This document shows, in pieces, positions 26,313 to 34,303 of a DNA stretch of 64,000 nucleotides; the first letter of the stretch is position 1; each line of letters begins with the position of its first letter. The translations under genes were made by a program, and so were the position numbers. Below the pieces are notes generated by a model. The model searched no databases. It saw only the letters and a list, made by a program, of their open reading frames with translations, and had not been told where the DNA came from. The DNA lies in the NCBI RefSeq assembly GCF_036884295.1, contig NZ_CP145608.1, forward strand, positions 868,001 through 932,000. Reading direction: 5' to 3'. This DNA comes from Brochothrix thermosphacta DSM 20171 = FSL F6-1036. GTDB lineage: Bacteria > Bacillota > Bacilli > Lactobacillales > Listeriaceae.

Positions 26313-26341
26313 TGACAATGATAATCATTATCACTTACAAT
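26313..26341 (+). promoter_or_regulatory. Heme-operon promoter with an embedded perfect Fur box
   Basis: TTGACA (26313-26318), a 17-bp spacer and TACAAT (26336-26341). The spacer contains TGATAATCATTATCA at 26319-26333, an exact match to the 7-1-7 Fur consensus inverted repeat. Fur-Fe2+ bound here would cover the whole core promoter, so the operon should be on only when iron is scarce. Confidence 0.93.
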
Positions 26342-26425: not shown

Positions 26426-27073
26426 ATGAAAAAATTATTAGCGACAGTCGTAATGATTACTACATTGACACTTTCACTGTTTATATTACCGCAAACAACG
26501 CATGCAGCAGTTGCAGATGGTACTTATTCAGTTGATTATACAGTATTACAGGGAGGTAGTGACTCGGTTTCAATGGCGAATGATTATTTTGATAAGCCAG
26601 CAACTGTAACAGTTTCAGGTGGTGAAACAACTGTGGATATTCAAGTGAATCACAGTAAATGGATTACAGGCTTATGGTTAAACTCAGCTAGCGAACAAGT
26701 CATTAGTTCCGATAAAGGGGCAGATACACGTAAAGTTCGTTTTAATATAGGGACTTTAGAAGAACAAATTCCTGCAAAAATAAAAGTTGATATTGATGAT
26801 AATGATTTGAATTATCACCATGAGTACAAAATTGTTTTGAAATTTGTATTGCCAAAAAACACTGAAAAAGCCAGTGGTACGAGTGATTCAAAAAACACAG
26901 ATGCAGTAGTTGCAAAAGGGACTGATACAAGTGGTAGCAGTGCAACAACTTCGACTGAAAAAGTGGCAAATCCCAAATCTGGGGATAATTCTTCAATGAT
27001 GCTTTATGGTGGATTGGGACTTTTAGCATTAATCGGTTTAGTGGTAGTTAGAAAAAAAACAGCAACAAAATAG
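26426..27073 (+). CDS. Small wall-anchored heme-binding NEAT protein (IsdC/Hbp1-like)
   Basis: First gene of the iron-regulated operon. It has a signal peptide (MKKLLATVV..., cleaved after about THA, residue 28) and one NEAT domain (about 30-150). The domain carries S-x-x-x-x-x-Y (SMANDYF) and the heme-ligand signature YxxxY (YHHEYKIVL near 132). A Ser/Thr-rich linker leads to a sorting signal: NPKSG near residue 182, a hydrophobic segment and RKK. It is expected to be exported, anchored by a sortase and to bind heme within the wall, like S. aureus IsdC or Listeria Hbp1. AGGAGG precedes the ATG. The giant NEAT gene follows after 15 bp. Confidence 0.9.
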   Translation: MKKLLATVVMITTLTLSLFILPQTTHAAVADGTYSVDYTVLQGGSDSVSMANDYFDKPATVTVSGGETTVDIQVNHSKWITGLWLNSASEQVISSDKGADTRKVRFNIGTLEEQIPAKIKVDIDDNDLNYHHEYKIVLKFVLPKNTEKASGTSDSKNTDAVVAKGTDTSGSSATTSTEKVANPKSGDNSSMMLYGGLGLLALIGLVVVRKKTATK

Positions 27074-27088
27074 GGGGAGATAATATTG

Positions 27089-30000
27089 ATGAAAACGGTG
27101 ATTAATAAATTTAGTGTATTTGTCCTCATTGCTATGTTAGTAGTAAGCTTTTTCCCATCTTATGTAGCAAGCGCTGATTCAACAGTGTTAAAAGATGGTG
27201 GCGAATATAAAGTTAATGTTAATTTCTTTAAAGATAAAACTGGCTCGACAACAAAAGAAAAGTCGGTAGCAGATGATTATATTAATAATGAAGCAACAAT
27301 TAAGGTTGAGAATAATCAACCCTATTTATATTTAAACGTAAAAAATAGTTCTTGGTGGAAAGCAATGGCAGTTAGTGAAACGGGTAACCGTCCAGAAACG
27401 CCAAATCCAAAAGAGGATTACGCTGGAAAATATAACGATGTTCAAATCGTTTCAAAAGATGATAGCACTCAAACGCAAGTAATCAAAATTAAAGTAGAAG
27501 ATTTGAATAAAATCGTTTATTCGTATATGCATATCGTTGTGGATACAATTCCTGGATTTACTTACGACAACTGGTATCAAATTGATCTTGTCATTGATCC
27601 AGCATCGGTACAAGTTATTTCTGAACCAGAAGAAAAACCAGCAGCATTAGCAGATGGCACGTACAAAGTCCCATTCGCTGCAAAACATGCAACACAAGAC
27701 AAAGCAAGCAGCATGCAAAAATATTTTGATAATCCCGTTTACATCCAAGTAAAAGATGGCAAACGTACGGCAGCAATGACAATTAATGACACAGATACGG
27801 TGAAAGAGTTCCAAACAACCGTGGATGGCGCATTTAAAGAAACAACAACGTTGTCAACTAAAGATAAAACACGTACGGTTCAATTTAATGTACCGGATGA
27901 AAACGCAGATTTATTGGCACACGTGAACTATGAAGCGCCATTTAATGGTGGTGTTCATAAAGGCAGCGCAGATTTCCGTCTAGCATTTGATACAACACAA
28001 GCAACAAAAGTAGCAGATTCAGAGTTCCCAGTGGCAACGCCCACAGAACCTGAAAAACCAGCAGCATTAGCAGATGGTACGTATAAAATCCCATTCGCTG
28101 CAAAACATGCCACTGAAGACAAAGCAAGCAGCATGCAAAAATATTTTGATAATCCCGTTTACATCCAAGTAAAAGATGGCAAACGTACGGCAGCGATGAT
28201 AATTAATGACACAGATACGGTGAAAGAATTCCAAACAACCGTGGATGGCGCATTTAAAGAAACAACAACGTTGTCAACTAAAGATAAAACACGTACAGTT
28301 CAATTTAATGTACCGGATGAGAATGCAGATTTATTGGCACACGTGAACTATGAAGCGCCATTTAATGGTGGTATTCATAAAGGTAGTGCAGATTTCCGCT
28401 TAGCATTTGATACAACACAAGCAACAAAAGTAGCAGATTCAGAGTTCCCAGTGGCAACGCCCACAGAACCTGAAAAACCAGCAGCATTAGCAGATGGTAC
28501 GTATAAAATCCCATTCGCTGCAAAACATGCCACTGAAGACAAAGCAAGCAGCATGCAAAAATATTTTGATAATCCCGTTTACATCCAAGTAAAAGATGGC
28601 AAACGTACGGCAGCGATGACAATAAATGACACAGATACGGTGAAAGAATTCCAAACAACCGTGGATGGCGTATTTAAAGAAACAACAACGTTGTCAACTA
28701 AAGATAAAACACGTACGGTTCAATTTAATGTACCGGATGAAAACGCTGATTTATTGGCACACGTGAACTATGAAGCGCCATTTAATGGTGGTGTTCATAA
28801 AGGTAGTGCAGATTTCCGCTTAGCATTTGATACAACACAAGCAACAAAAGTAGCAGATTCAGAGTTCCCAGTGGTAACGCCCACAGAACCTGAAAAACCA
28901 GCAGCATTAGCAGATGGTACGTATAAAATCCCATTCGCTGCAAAACATGCCACTGAAGACAAAGCAAGCAGCATGCAAAAATATTTTGATAATCCCGTTT
29001 ACATCCAAGTAAAAGATGGCAAACGTACGGCAGCGATGACAATAAATGACACAGATACGGTGAAAGAATTCCAAACAACCGTGGATGGCGTATTTAAAGA
29101 AACAACAACGTTGTCAACTAAAGATAAAACACGTACGGTTCAATTTAATGTACCGGATGAAAACGCTGATTTATTGGCACACGTGAACTATGAAGCGCCA
29201 TTTAATGGTGGTGTTCATAAAGGTAGTGCAGATTTCCGTCTAGCATTTGATACAACACAAGCAACAAAAGTAGCAGATTCAGAGTTCCCAGTGGCAACGC
29301 CCACAGAACCTGAAAAACCAGCAGCATTAGTAGATGGTACGTATAAAATCCCATTCGTTGCAAAACATGCCACTGAAGACAAAGCAAGCAGCATGCAAGG
29401 TTACTTTACAAATCCAGCTTATATCAAAGTTGAAAATGGTAAACGCACGGTTGCTATGACTATTACAGATTCTAAGACAGTCACAAGCTTCCAAACAATG
29501 GTTGCCGGTGCACTTAAAGATGTTAAAGTATTATCAACAGATAGCAAAAATAATACGCGCACGGTTTCATTTGAAATCGATGATGAAAAAGCAGATCTTT
29601 TTTCACATGTGACATATGCCGTAGATATGGGCAATGCACGCGCAATATATGAAGGTAAAGCAGATTTTCGTTTAGCGTTTGATCCAAAAAATGCGATGAT
29701 TGTTTCACCACTTGAGTTTCCTCAAGCTGAGACACCAACAGAGCCAGAAAAACCATCAACGATTGATCCTTTGAAATTAAAAGATGGCTCAACTTATACA
29801 ATTGATTTTGAAGTCACAAAAGAAAACAGTAAAGAAGTTTCAATGATGGATGAATATATGGTGAAACCAGCTGTAATCAAAGTTGAGAAAAAACAGCCAT
29901 TTGCCTATGTTACACTAAAAAACAGTCATTGGATTCAAACGTTTGAAACAGAACAGAATGGAAAATATATTGCTGCTGAAGTAGTTGAAAACAATAAAAC

Positions 30001-31612
30001 AAAGGATACACGTGTTGTAAAATACCCTATAAAAGATGCAACTGTGTCGACAAAAGTACGCACACACGTTAAAATTACCGACGTTCCTGGATTGAAGTAT
30101 GATGAAACGTATGGCGTTAATGTAAAATTAGATGCCAAATCAATCAAAGAAACAACTCCAACAGAACCTGGTAAACCAACAGAACCTGGCAAACCAACAG
30201 AACCTGGTAAACCAACAGAACCTGGTAAACCAACAGAACCTGGTAAACCAACAGAACCTGGCAAACCAACAGAACCTGGCAAACCAACAGAACCTGGCAA
30301 ACCAACAGAACCTGGTAAACCAACAGAACCTGGTAAACCAACAGAACCAAGTAAACCAACAAAACCTAGCAAGCCAGCACCTGTTGATCCATTAAAGTTA
30401 AAAAACAATCATCAGTATACGGTGAACTTTAAAGTTTTGAAAGAAAAATCAACAGAATTATCAATGATGGATGGTTATACACAAAAACCAGCCGTTATCA
30501 AAGTTGAAAAAAATCAAGCCTATGCTTACGTTACATTAAAAAATAGTCACTGGATCAAAACATTTGAAACGAAACAAAATGGTAAATTTGTTGCAGCACA
30601 AGTTGTAAGCAAAGATGCTAAAAAAGACACACGTGTCGTGAAATATCCTGTGAAAAATGCTGCTGACTCAACAGAAGCGCGCACTCACGTTAAAATTACA
30701 GATGTACCAGGATTAAAATATGACAATGTTTATAAAATAACGGTTAAGTTGGATGGTAAATCAATTAAAGATGTCACAACAACCAAACCAGTGTTGCCAG
30801 TGAAACCTCAACCACCAGTAAAACCAACAACGCCAGTAAAACCAAGTAAGCCTGTAACGCCAGTAAAACCAAGTAAGCCTGTAACGCCAGTAAAACCATC
30901 TCAACCAGTAAAAACAGCAGTGGTTAACCCTAACAAATTACAAGAGGGTAAAAGTTACTCAACAAATTTCACTATCCTAAAAGAAAATTCAAACGCTGTT
31001 TCAATGATGGATAGCTACACGCAAAAACCAGCTATTATCAAAGTTGAACAAGGGCAAGCTTATCTTTACTTGACACTGACTAATAGCCATTGGATAAAAA
31101 CGTTTGAAACAAAACAAAATGGTAAATTTATTGCGGCTCAAGTAGTATCAAAAGATACGAAAAAAGATACGCGTGTCGTAAAATATAAGATTCCAAATGG
31201 AGCAGCAGCAACAGAAGCACGTACACATGTCAAAATTGATGATGTTCCAGGTTTAGATTATGACAATTACTACAATGTTACTGTGAAACTTGATCCAAAA
31301 ACATTAACAGATACTACCGGGAAAAAAGTTGTTCAATTGGCAGTTGTAACTAATGCGAACAATACATCAGGTACTGGACCAAATGGGACAGCGAACACTG
31401 TGTCAACTTTGGCACAACCAAATAATAATGCAGGTGCAGCTTTGCTAAAACCAACTTTTGCAAAAGCAGAACAAGCACCCATTAAACAAACGGCAGCAAC
31501 TAAACAACAAAATGTGAAGACTGGCGATAAAGCAAGTATGTTCATTTACGGATTATTTGTTATACTAGCTAGTGGGTACTTTATCAGAAGATTCCAAGTG
31601 AGAAATCGATAA
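27089..31612 (+). CDS. Giant nine-NEAT cell-wall heme/hemoprotein receptor
   Basis: About 1,507 aa. In order: signal peptide (to about residue 30); NEAT1 (33-175) with YDNWY; five tandem 140-residue NEAT units starting near 182, 322, 462, 602 and 742, the first four almost identical, none with YxxxY (VHKGSADF at that place; YEGKADF in the fifth); NEAT7 (about 890-1020, YDETY); a PTEPGK repeat linker (1024-1095); NEAT8 (about 1098-1228, YDNVY); a PVKPSKP linker; NEAT9 (about 1280-1408, YDNYY); and a sorting signal NVKTG at 1475 with hydrophobic segment and basic tail. The role is capture of heme and probably hemoproteins at the surface. ATG 27089 is preferred over TTG 27086 for spacing to AGGGGGA. 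Confidence 0.9.
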   Translation: MKTVINKFSVFVLIAMLVVSFFPSYVASADSTVLKDGGEYKVNVNFFKDKTGSTTKEKSVADDYINNEATIKVENNQPYLYLNVKNSSWWKAMAVSETGNRPETPNPKEDYAGKYNDVQIVSKDDSTQTQVIKIKVEDLNKIVYSYMHIVVDTIPGFTYDNWYQIDLVIDPASVQVISEPEEKPAALADGTYKVPFAAKHATQDKASSMQKYFDNPVYIQVKDGKRTAAMTINDTDTVKEFQTTVDGAFKETTTLSTKDKTRTVQFNVPDENADLLAHVNYEAPFNGGVHKGSADFRLAFDTTQATKVADSEFPVATPTEPEKPAALADGTYKIPFAAKHATEDKASSMQKYFDNPVYIQVKDGKRTAAMIINDTDTVKEFQTTVDGAFKETTTLSTKDKTRTVQFNVPDENADLLAHVNYEAPFNGGIHKGSADFRLAFDTTQATKVADSEFPVATPTEPEKPAALADGTYKIPFAAKHATEDKASSMQKYFDNPVYIQVKDGKRTAAMTINDTDTVKEFQTTVDGVFKETTTLSTKDKTRTVQFNVPDENADLLAHVNYEAPFNGGVHKGSADFRLAFDTTQATKVADSEFPVVTPTEPEKPAALADGTYKIPFAAKHATEDKASSMQKYFDNPVYIQVKDGKRTAAMTINDTDTVKEFQTTVDGVFKETTTLSTKDKTRTVQFNVPDENADLLAHVNYEAPFNGGVHKGSADFRLAFDTTQATKVADSEFPVATPTEPEKPAALVDGTYKIPFVAKHATEDKASSMQGYFTNPAYIKVENGKRTVAMTITDSKTVTSFQTMVAGALKDVKVLSTDSKNNTRTVSFEIDDEKADLFSHVTYAVDMGNARAIYEGKADFRLAFDPKNAMIVSPLEFPQAETPTEPEKPSTIDPLKLKDGSTYTIDFEVTKENSKEVSMMDEYMVKPAVIKVEKKQPFAYVTLKNSHWIQTFETEQNGKYIAAEVVENNKTKDTRVVKYPIKDATVSTKVRTHVKITDVPGLKYDETYGVNVKLDAKSIKETTPTEPGKPTEPGKPTEPGKPTEPGKPTEPGKPTEPGKPTEPGKPTEPGKPTEPGKPTEPGKPTEPSKPTKPSKPAPVDPLKLKNNHQYTVNFKVLKEKSTELSMMDGYTQKPAVIKVEKNQAYAYVTLKNSHWIKTFETKQNGKFVAAQVVSKDAKKDTRVVKYPVKNAADSTEARTHVKITDVPGLKYDNVYKITVKLDGKSIKDVTTTKPVLPVKPQPPVKPTTPVKPSKPVTPVKPSKPVTPVKPSQPVKTAVVNPNKLQEGKSYSTNFTILKENSNAVSMMDSYTQKPAIIKVEQGQAYLYLTLTNSHWIKTFETKQNGKFIAAQVVSKDTKKDTRVVKYKIPNGAAATEARTHVKIDDVPGLDYDNYYNVTVKLDPKTLTDTTGKKVVQLAVVTNANNTSGTGPNGTANTVSTLAQPNNNAGAALLKPTFAKAEQAPIKQTAATKQQNVKTGDKASMFIYGLFVILASGYFIRRFQVRNR
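27632..29731 (+). repeat. Tandem 420-bp NEAT-domain repeats (4 near-identical + 1 divergent)
   Basis: Unit starts at 27632, 28052, 28472, 28892 and 29312 with exact 420-bp periodicity, each beginning GAAAAACCAGCAGCATTAG. Units 1-4 differ by a handful of substitutions; unit 5 keeps its first 85 bp or so and then diverges. This indicates recent unequal-crossover expansion. Confidence 0.95.
30158..30373 (+). repeat. 18-bp PTEPGK minisatellite linker
   Basis: Twelve 18-bp units: ten encode PTEPGK (differing only in synonymous positions), then PTEPSK and PTKPSK. It forms an extended Pro/Glu/Lys spacer between NEAT7 and NEAT8, likely variable in copy number. Confidence 0.95.
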
Positions 31613-31652: not shown

Positions 31653-31690
31653 AGACAGGCCTTAGCATTAATGCTAAGGTCTTTATTTTA
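31653..31690 (+). terminator. Weak terminator/attenuator between the giant NEAT gene and isdE
   Basis: A perfect 20-bp palindrome CCTTAGCATTAATGCTAAGG (31660-31679) is followed by TCTTTATTTTA. It may only partly stop transcription, reducing transporter expression relative to the surface proteins. Confidence 0.55.
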
Positions 31691-31709
31691 TGAGAGAGGT
31701 GACTTCATA

Positions 31710-32591
31710 GTGAAATTTAAAAAAATAATTGTACTAAGCGCCGCCTTACTTTTATTAGCGGGTTGCGGTAGTCCAAAATCAGCAGCAGATGAAACAAGCA
31801 CAAAAAAAATGGAACAAGAAAAACGTGTTGTCACAACTACAGTTGCGACAACTGAAATAATGGCAAAATTAAATGTTGATTTAGTGGGCATCCCGACGTC
31901 TTCTAAAAAATTACCAGAGCGTTATGCAAAGGTACAAAAAACAGGCTCTCCAATGAGCCCAGATTTGGAGATTATTCGTTCATTAAAGCCAGATGTTGTG
32001 TTAGCTACTAAAACGTTAGAGGCTGATCTGAAAGATGGTTTTGAACAAGCCCAATTAAAAGCAGAATTTCTTGATTTTCGCAGTATATCTTCAATGGAGG
32101 ATGAAATAACAAAGTTAGGGAAAACATTAGAGCGTGAAAAGGAAGCAAAAGTATTGAATGAAACATTATCACAACACGTATCTAATATAAAAGCAGAAGT
32201 TGCTGGAAAAAAACAGCCAACAGTGCTCATCTTAATGGGAATTCCAGGCAGTTATTTAGTTGTCACTGAGCATGCCTATATTGGCGACTTGGTGAAAATT
32301 GCGGGGGGAAAGAACATTATTCAAGACCAACCCCAAGAATATTTAGCATCTAACACTGAATTTTTACAAAAAAGTAACCCTGATATTATTTTGAGAGCAT
32401 CACATGGAATGCCGAAAGAGGTCGTTGAGATGTTTGATAAAGAATTTAAAGATAATGATATTTGGAAGCACTTTAACGCTGTCAAAAAGGGTCGAGTTTA
32501 TGATTTAGATGAAAATTTATTCGGTATGACAGCTTCTTTGAATGCACCAGATGCATTAGACAAAACAGTAGAGTACCTCTATGAAAAATAG
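31710..32591 (+). CDS. isdE: IsdE-like heme-binding lipoprotein
   Basis: Substrate-binding lipoprotein of a heme ABC importer. Lipobox LLAGC (Cys19) follows a short basic signal sequence. The class III (cobalamin/siderophore-type) binding fold contains GSPMSPDLEII, whose Met corresponds to the IsdE heme-axial Met, and LRASHGMPKE near residue 230, whose His corresponds to the second axial ligand. I start at GTG 31710 behind GAGAGGTGA, since the frame's earlier start adds 13 residues that break the signal peptide. About 293 aa. Its last eleven bases overlap isdF. Confidence 0.92.
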   Translation: MKFKKIIVLSAALLLLAGCGSPKSAADETSTKKMEQEKRVVTTTVATTEIMAKLNVDLVGIPTSSKKLPERYAKVQKTGSPMSPDLEIIRSLKPDVVLATKTLEADLKDGFEQAQLKAEFLDFRSISSMEDEITKLGKTLEREKEAKVLNETLSQHVSNIKAEVAGKKQPTVLILMGIPGSYLVVTEHAYIGDLVKIAGGKNIIQDQPQEYLASNTEFLQKSNPDIILRASHGMPKEVVEMFDKEFKDNDIWKHFNAVKKGRVYDLDENLFGMTASLNAPDALDKTVEYLYEK

Positions 32592-33561
32592 AGTGATTTG
32601 GCTGTATGTTATTGTAACTACCGTTTTGATTCTTGCGATACTGTGGTCATTACTATCCGGCAGTATTTCTATCACTTTTTGGGAAATAGCAACACAATTG
32701 TTCAGTTCGGGAAATGAAAATGTTGCGATTATTCGTGATTTACGCTTACCACGTATTATATTAGCGTTATTTGCAGGAGCGGCACTCTCTGTTTCAGGGT
32801 TATTATTACAAGCTGTTTTAAAAAATCCGCTTGCAGATGCAGGTGTTATTGGTATTTCAGCGGGAGCGCAGTTGTTTGTGTTGAGTTTACTCACTTTTTC
32901 ACCTCAAATGTACAATTGGTCACCGGTTGCCGCTTTTATAGGAGGGAGTATCGCTTGCGTGTTAGTCTTCCTATTTAGTATTCGTTCAGGGCTTAACCCA
33001 CTCTATTTGATTATCATTGGAGTGGCCGTTAACGCTGTTTTCACTGGATTAGGTGATCTAGTATCTGGAATTGGTGCACAAGTCAGTAGTCAGGCATCTG
33101 GGAGTGCTATTGGCTTTGGTATGAAGAAATGGTCAGATGTATCAATGTTAGTGGGTTACGGTGGTTTAGGATTGCTGTTATCATTTTTCCTTGCAAAGCG
33201 CTGTAACTTATTGGCTTTAACAGATGATGTTTTGGTTGGATTAGGAGCACCGATAGCCCGTATCAGAATTATGATTGCTGCTGTTGCCGTTTTGTTGGCA
33301 GCCATTGCAACTGCAGTGGTAGGCGTCATTGCTTTTGTAGGATTATTAGTACCACACATGGCGAGATCCTTATTAAAAACAGCAGATCATCGTATATTAC
33401 TGCCTTTTTCAATGCTGTTAGGTGGTTTGTTATTAATTATTGCAGATACGTTGGGACGGATTATGTTTGAGCAAGTTGAAATTCCAGCGGCAATTATCAT
33501 GTTGATCATTGGTGGACCATTCTTAATCCTATTGATGTGGCGTAATAAAGTAATTCGTTAA
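32581..33561 (+). CDS. isdF: IsdF-like heme ABC transporter permease (FecCD family)
   Basis: Membrane permease of the BtuC/FecCD type that passes heme from IsdE into the cytosol. About 8-10 hydrophobic helices are visible; family motifs include RDLRLPRIILALFAGAALS near residue 46, NPLADAGVIGISAGAQ near 83, and FVGLLVPHMARSLLKTADHR near 247, the region that contacts the ATPase. The 326 aa are complete. The start overlaps isdE. No ATPase gene adjoins it, so energy must come from an ATPase encoded elsewhere. Confidence 0.92.
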   Translation: MKNRVIWLYVIVTTVLILAILWSLLSGSISITFWEIATQLFSSGNENVAIIRDLRLPRIILALFAGAALSVSGLLLQAVLKNPLADAGVIGISAGAQLFVLSLLTFSPQMYNWSPVAAFIGGSIACVLVFLFSIRSGLNPLYLIIIGVAVNAVFTGLGDLVSGIGAQVSSQASGSAIGFGMKKWSDVSMLVGYGGLGLLLSFFLAKRCNLLALTDDVLVGLGAPIARIRIMIAAVAVLLAAIATAVVGVIAFVGLLVPHMARSLLKTADHRILLPFSMLLGGLLLIIADTLGRIMFEQVEIPAAIIMLIIGGPFLILLMWRNKVIR

Positions 33562-33574
33562 GAGGGGGAAGCAG

Positions 33575-34303
33575 ATGAAACGAAAGATACTCAATCTTAT
33601 TATGCTTGCTGTGCTTGTTTTTTCGAGTTACCAAATAATAAAAACATATCGTGAAAATAAACATAATCAAACAGTTTTAACAGAAGTACAAACGTTATAT
33701 AAAGAAGAGATACAAACAACGCCTAAGGGGGAGGAACAAAAATTCCCTGCTTTTAAAAAGTTACAAACGATTAATCCGGATATTATTGGTTGGTTAACAA
33801 TTGCGGATTCAACAATTAACTATCCTGTTTTACAAACGGATAATAACGATTATTACTTGAAGCATAATTATCAAGGCGAGTCAGCTCGCGCAGGTAGCGT
33901 TTTTAAAGATTTTCGTAATACTAACCAAGATGAAAAGAATACGATTATTTATGGGCATAATATGAAAGATGGTTCAATGTTTGCTGATATTCAAAAATAC
34001 ATGGATAAAGATTTTTTTAAGTCACATCCCACATTTGAATATAATACAGAAACAGAAAACTATAAGGTTGAGGTATTTGCTGTCTATGAAACGACGACTG
34101 ATTTTTATTATATTGAGACTAATTTTAATGAAACAGCTTCTTTTGCGCGATATCTGAGTGAAGTTCAAAAAATGTCCGTTTATAAAACCGATGTGAAGGT
34201 TTCTGATGAAGACCATATCATTACTTTATCAACGTGTGATACTGGTTTTGATTATGAAAAAGGGCGGTATGTGGTGCAAGGTAAAATTGTTAAAAGTGAT
34301 TAA
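33575..34303 (+). CDS. srtB: Class B sortase
   Basis: Membrane-anchored transpeptidase that links wall proteins to peptidoglycan. An N-terminal signal-anchor (about residues 5-20) precedes the sortase barrel. The catalytic residues are His in IIYGHNMKDGS near 127, Cys in ITLSTCDTG near 221, and Arg in KGRYVVQG near 233; TLSTC is the class B form. At 242 aa it is full length. Its position as last gene of the heme operon, as in S. aureus and Listeria, implies the two NEAT proteins are its substrates. Confidence 0.94.
   Translation: MKRKILNLIMLAVLVFSSYQIIKTYRENKHNQTVLTEVQTLYKEEIQTTPKGEEQKFPAFKKLQTINPDIIGWLTIADSTINYPVLQTDNNDYYLKHNYQGESARAGSVFKDFRNTNQDEKNTIIYGHNMKDGSMFADIQKYMDKDFFKSHPTFEYNTETENYKVEVFAVYETTTDFYYIETNFNETASFARYLSEVQKMSVYKTDVKVSDEDHIITLSTCDTGFDYEKGRYVVQGKIVKSD

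Follow-up and report, generated by a model that had tools for sequence, protein, structure and literature searches.

A nine-NEAT protein of Brochothrix thermosphacta assigned by sequence to Listeria Hbp2

Gene content of the locus

The window analyzed here is a stretch of 64,000 nucleotides (C1:868001-932000) of the complete 2.56-Mb genome of Brochothrix thermosphacta (Listeriaceae; G000), which consists of a single contig. One open frame on its forward strand (27089-31612) encodes nine NEAT domains (PF05031, 93-122 bits each, far above the cut-off; Table 1). The protein comprises 1,507-1,508 amino acids and starts either at the ATG at 27089, from which all residues are numbered here, or at a TTG at 27086. 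Its C-terminus carries the stretch NVKTGDKAS, followed by a hydrophobic segment and a basic tail, and a srtB gene is located close by; with the srtB_target model, the protein fell short of the 0.001 threshold.

The gene is the second in a locus of the order isdC/hbp1-hbp2-isdE-isdF-srtB, which is situated under a Fur box. The gene order is common to Listeria, Brochothrix campestris, and two genomes of genus g17 (G040 and G054). The Fur box overlaps promoter hexamers resembling TTGACA/TTACAAT and is identical at 19 of 19 positions to the box published for lmo2186 of L. monocytogenes at -108 (PMC4481299). In Listeria, G040, and G054, a gene for the heme ABC ATPase (lmo2182 type) separates the permease gene from the sortase gene; both Brochothrix loci lack it at the corresponding position (33561-33575 in the window; L019:11477-11481 in B. 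campestris). There is also no close ortholog elsewhere in either Brochothrix genome, where the best candidate is about 40% identical and FhuC-like; IsdF may be driven by a shared siderophore ATPase. One protein of the ABM family (PF03992), possibly an IsdG-like heme-degrading enzyme, is encoded far from the operon (G000:C1:2181171-2181410).

Table 1. Features of the nine-NEAT gene and its surroundings (window coordinates)
Feature	Position	Strand	Characteristics
Fur box, GACAATGATAATCATTATC	26314..26332	+	17/19 to Fur consensus; 112 bp upstream of isdC ATG
IsdC/Hbp1-type single-NEAT wall protein	26426..27073	+	YHHEY, tail NPKSGD...; TIGR03656 219 bits, cut-off 156; groups with Listeria Hbp1
Nine-NEAT gene, putative Hbp2 ortholog	27089..31612	+	Signal peptide; PF05031 x9; putative SrtB-type tail read from sequence
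N1	27197-27598	+	Hbp2-N1 type, YDNWY, lip SVADDY
Tandem array of 420 bp, N2-N5 and start of N6	27632..29398	+	4.2 copies, 97% match (TRF); unit comparison
N2-N5 together	27644..29254	+	Tyr281/421/561/701 at Hbp2 Tyr280 column; lip SSMQKY
Canonical ligand position of N2-N5	within 27644..29254	+	His290/430/570/710
N2	27644-27994	+	Hbp2-N2 type, PF05031 match
N3	28064-28414	+	Hbp2-N2 type, PF05031 match
N4	28484-28834	+	Hbp2-N2 type, PF05031 match
N5	28904-29254	+	Hbp2-N2 type, PF05031 match
N6	29327-29683	+	Older Hbp2-N2 type copy; Tyr843 and Tyr854 at both Hbp2 tyrosine positions; lip SSMQGY
N7	29780-30133	+	Hbp2-N3 type, YDETY
(PTEPGK)n wall-type linker, N7-N8	30158..30367	+	11.7 copies of 18-bp repeat (TRF)
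N8	30404-30754	+	Hbp2-N3 type, YDNVY
Pro/Lys-rich repeat linker (PVKPSKPVT), N8-N9	30796..30911	+	Repeat search and sequence reading
N9	30947-31294	+	Hbp2-N3 type, YDNYY
IsdE heme-binding lipoprotein	31671..32591	+	TIGR03659 405 bits, cut-off 299
IsdF-type heme/iron ABC permease	32581..33561	+	Permease families; position matches Listeria lmo2183
Class B sortase SrtB	33575..34303	+	TIGR03064 278 bits, cut-off 154

Domain classes and tandem array

The initial annotation of this gene described nine NEAT domains of two classes in an ordered layout, with YxxxY present in N1, N7, N8, and N9 and absent from N2-N6, and this description is borne out by the PF05031 matches and the aligned motif positions. 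The four sites (residues 159, 1004, 1211, and 1391 in N1, N7, N8, and N9, respectively) fall at the place of the established ligand motif in the final strand. As initially proposed, these domains resemble ordinary heme-binding or relay domains. A fifth match (YAGKY, residue 111) belongs to a loop of N1, and a motif scan of the whole protein found none in N2-N6. The number of matches in the whole protein is only slightly above that in shuffled sequences (5 vs 2.0; P about 0.04); the significance of the motif comes from its aligned position, and its count carries little.

In a tree of 52 NEAT domains, N1 clusters with the first (100/99), N2-N6 with the second (100/99), and N7-N9 with the third domain (96/88) of Listeria Hbp2, which means that the class order of Hbp2 is present also in the nine-NEAT protein but with the second and third classes multiplied. 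The top match of a central domain in the PDB is NEAT2 of Hbp2 (4MYP/4NLA; E 7.6e-36 and 53% identity for N2), to which the central copies are 53-62% similar. Judged by sequence, the gene is the Brochothrix ortholog of Listeria hbp2 (lmo2185), with its domains multiplied to 1+5+3. In length the protein exceeds IsdB, IsdH, and Hbp2, as initially stated, but it does not fall outside the Hbp2 kind. Other identities were rejected: the scores remained far below the cut-offs for IsdX2 (NF058656, 530 bits vs 1400) and for the NCBIfam equivalogs IsdB (62/1231 bits) and IsdH (30/1400 bits), and the IsdC model (TIGR03656, 466 bits vs 156) was passed only because nine domains add up. Owing to this summing, automatic annotation may misname the protein IsdC.

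The central domains differ in age. N2-N5 are mutually 96-100% identical at the protein level, whereas N6 as a whole is only about 62% identical to them; the four 420-bp units are 96-99% identical in DNA and differ at distinct sites. Codon differences per pair of the recent copies (N2-N5) amount to 2-13 synonymous and 1-4 non-synonymous changes. These similarities identify N2-N5 as a recent tandem array and N6 as an older copy, so that the five domains without YxxxY apparently represent a single ancestral state that was copied. In both Brochothrix species, the N2-type copies group by species, suggesting an independent expansion or homogenization in each of them.

Part of the copy number of five might be an artifact of assembly or strain, with most strains having a different number. 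Units that are almost identical over 420 bp form the type of array that is prone to recombination or misassembly, and the locus of B. campestris is split into three frames in a draft contig. However, the genome of B. thermosphacta is a single complete contig whose units differ at distinct sites, and B. campestris also possesses about four N2-type domains, which indicates an expansion in both species, each represented by one genome in this comparison. An artifact is unlikely, and it would be compatible with the preferred reading, namely that an Hbp2 ortholog was enlarged by tandem duplication.

Predicted heme binding by the central domains

The initial annotation took the five central domains, which lack YxxxY, to be of a non-heme type and to form a zone that docks hemoproteins such as hemoglobin or myoglobin and passes their heme to the flanking YxxxY domains. 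Brochothrix is a genus that includes meat-spoilage bacteria, which would suit such a role, as would the absence of YxxxY from N2-N6 and the loss of the tyrosine at the canonical ligand position in N2-N5. In addition, NEAT2 of IsdX2, which carries YKQTH, does not bind heme but has been reported to interact with hemoglobin (PMC4143258). Nevertheless, the nearest solved relative of the central domains, NEAT2 of Hbp2, lacks YxxxY and yet was crystallized with heme (4MYP). The structure predicted for N5 by AlphaFold (pLDDT 84) points in the same direction, because its top fold matches are 4MYP, described as "complexed with heme", and the apo form 4NLA (TM 0.86-0.89), both ranking ahead of heme-bound IsdX1 and IsdX2-N5. 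A joint prediction of N1-N2-N3 (pLDDT 50, pTM 0.33) was set aside as evidence.

Some NEAT domains that lack part of the motif bind heme through other axial ligands, as stated in a review that cites the work on Hbp2 (PMC7815599), and NEAT2 of Hbp2 is listed among the domains with tyrosine coordination (PMC12796733). In the chain numbering of 4MYP, Tyr280 belongs to "HVNY", and the canonical position is that of Tyr289. The Hbp2 structure study (Malmirchegini 2014) reportedly describes a non-canonical tyrosine in NEAT2, which by the numbering of the 4MYP construct is probably Tyr280. In our alignment table, every N2-type domain from Listeria, Brochothrix, and G040 has tyrosine in this column, and every YxxxY domain tabulated has valine or isoleucine. 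The column of Tyr289 is occupied by histidine in N2-N5 and by tyrosine in N6 and all other tabulated domains, and the four copies with this substitution may bind heme differently or not at all. Tyr289 is not known to be essential in Hbp2, and it was hence not treated as a defining residue of the ortholog. In two deeper homologs, domains resembling N2 that are encoded in Bacillus sp. JCM 19041 (L030:5293-6885), methionine occupies the Tyr280 column and the second tyrosine is replaced by glutamine, which may represent a third ligand variant.

The lip of the heme pocket provides a further distinction. Its serine and tyrosine (SxxxxY) are retained in all nine domains, whereas the non-heme NEAT domains of Staphylococcus aureus keep neither SxxxxY nor YxxxY (PMC4143258). 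No match to the hemoglobin-binding motif (F/Y)YH(Y/F), strict or relaxed, occurs anywhere in the protein, and hemoglobin binding by NEAT domains without this aromatic motif has been questioned (PMC7815599). Alignment via 4H8P (SMMNQY) and its Q29T mutant 4H8Q (SMMNTY) places lysine (N2-N5) or glycine (N6) at the Gln29 lip position, which rules out a glutamine at the fourth lip position as an argument for extraction from hemoglobin. In IsdX2, an amide residue at this position is needed for the extraction of heme from methemoglobin, and the departure of N2-N6 from that rule leaves heme extraction from hemoglobin without support. Their kinship with a heme-bound domain, the class tyrosine, the intact lip, and the missing aromatic motif make heme binding the better prediction, and for N2-N6 an unusual form of heme binding is more likely than none at all; a zone that captures hemoproteins is quite unlikely. 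A literature search retrieved neither measurements on NEAT domains of Brochothrix nor reports on heme uptake in this genus.

We consider it probable that the protein is an Hbp2 ortholog enlarged by tandem duplication of the second and third NEAT domains, whose N2-type copies bind heme and whose YxxxY domains relay it. The homology, the domain classes, the residues, the operon, and the Fur box were observed directly; heme binding by each domain and the order of transfer are inferred, and the benefit of additional copies is speculative. Under iron starvation, Fur would release the operon, as indicated by the sequence signals, and SrtB would fix the protein (N1, five N2-type domains, three N3-type domains, and a sortase-B anchor) to the cell wall, as suggested by the sorting signal and the neighboring gene. 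The five N2-type domains would probably bind heme via the non-canonical tyrosine of Hbp2-N2, whereas canonical binding is probable for N1 and N7-N9, which would hand heme on via IsdC to the IsdE-IsdF importer. With its duplicated domains, each molecule might have as many as nine heme sites and a longer reach through the wall. The histidine in N2-N5, the tentative assignment of Tyr280 as the ligand, and the lack of the ATPase gene in the operon count against this explanation.

It is also conceivable, but quite improbable, that N2-N5 bind heme in a mode new to NEAT domains, which would combine the non-canonical tyrosine of Hbp2 on strand 7 with the histidine at the canonical position on strand 8, e.g., by a Tyr/His exchange or a six-coordinate heme, with the five central domains serving as a heme-buffering string on the cell surface. 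Very unlikely is a role mainly as a spacer, in which the tandem copies together with the Pro/Lys/Glu linkers would carry N1 outward across the wall, and the extra copies would bind heme only incidentally or no longer: the long PTEPGK and PVKP linkers, the recent origin and near-identity of the copies, and the restriction of the histidine to exactly these four would fit, but the mostly synonymous codon differences among them are consistent with constraint on the protein, and all five central domains retain both the class tyrosine and the lip.

Relation to known NEAT proteins

The rule that a missing YxxxY means no heme requires correction, because the only solved domain of the N2 class binds heme and a signature tyrosine marks the class; annotation by YxxxY alone gives too low a number of probable heme sites. 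The number of N2-type copies increases from one in Listeria to two in G040/G054, about four in B. campestris, and five in the nine-NEAT protein. This series offers a natural test of whether, in a food-spoilage lineage akin to Listeria, heme uptake is tuned by the copy number of NEAT domains.

Hbp2/SvpA (lmo2185) of L. monocytogenes and sensu stricto Listeria shares with the Brochothrix protein the class order, the operon, the Fur box, a putative SrtB-type tail, and the lack of YxxxY in the N2 class alone. It differs in size, with three NEAT domains in 573-600 amino acids as opposed to 1+5+3 in 1,508, in having Tyr289 where N2-N5 have histidine, and in the presence of the ATPase gene in its locus. 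In genus g17 of the same order (G040, G054; L022, L082), the orthologous gene and locus are present and the N2-type domain is duplicated (N1-N2-N2-N3), with open frames of 736 (G040) and 722 (G054) amino acids. Also in B. campestris (L019/L025), gene and locus are orthologous and the N2-type domains have been duplicated; its broken frames encode N1, about four N2-type domains, and two N3-type domains. The three overlapping frames (L019:5855-9585) lie within the repeat region of a draft contig and reflect either decay or a draft sequencing error.

More distant systems resemble the protein in general design. IsdX2 of Bacillus anthracis is also a multi-NEAT hemophore that mixes domains with and without YxxxY, but it has five NEATs and lacks the class order of Hbp2. 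IsdB and IsdH of S. aureus are likewise multi-NEAT wall proteins with two kinds of domains; by contrast, their non-heme domains possess (F/Y)YH(Y/F) and a following helical linker, and the motif is absent from the Brochothrix protein. The Bacilli genus g116 (L079, L080, L081) encodes proteins of 1,336-1,462 amino acids with 9-10 NEATs and a similar mixture of YxxxY and non-YxxxY domains, but their domain classes and order are unlike those of Hbp2. The respective genes (L079:1579-5964, L080:2111-6118, L081:1782-5825) adjoin those of several single-NEAT proteins. The 9-10 NEATs of g116, together with an open frame of 4,213 residues elsewhere that has seven weaker matches, rule out that the Brochothrix protein is the longest NEAT protein. 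Similar NEAT counts already exist in g116; as far as searched, the new features in Brochothrix are the enlargement of Hbp2 to 1+5+3 domains and the histidine substitution in N2-N5.
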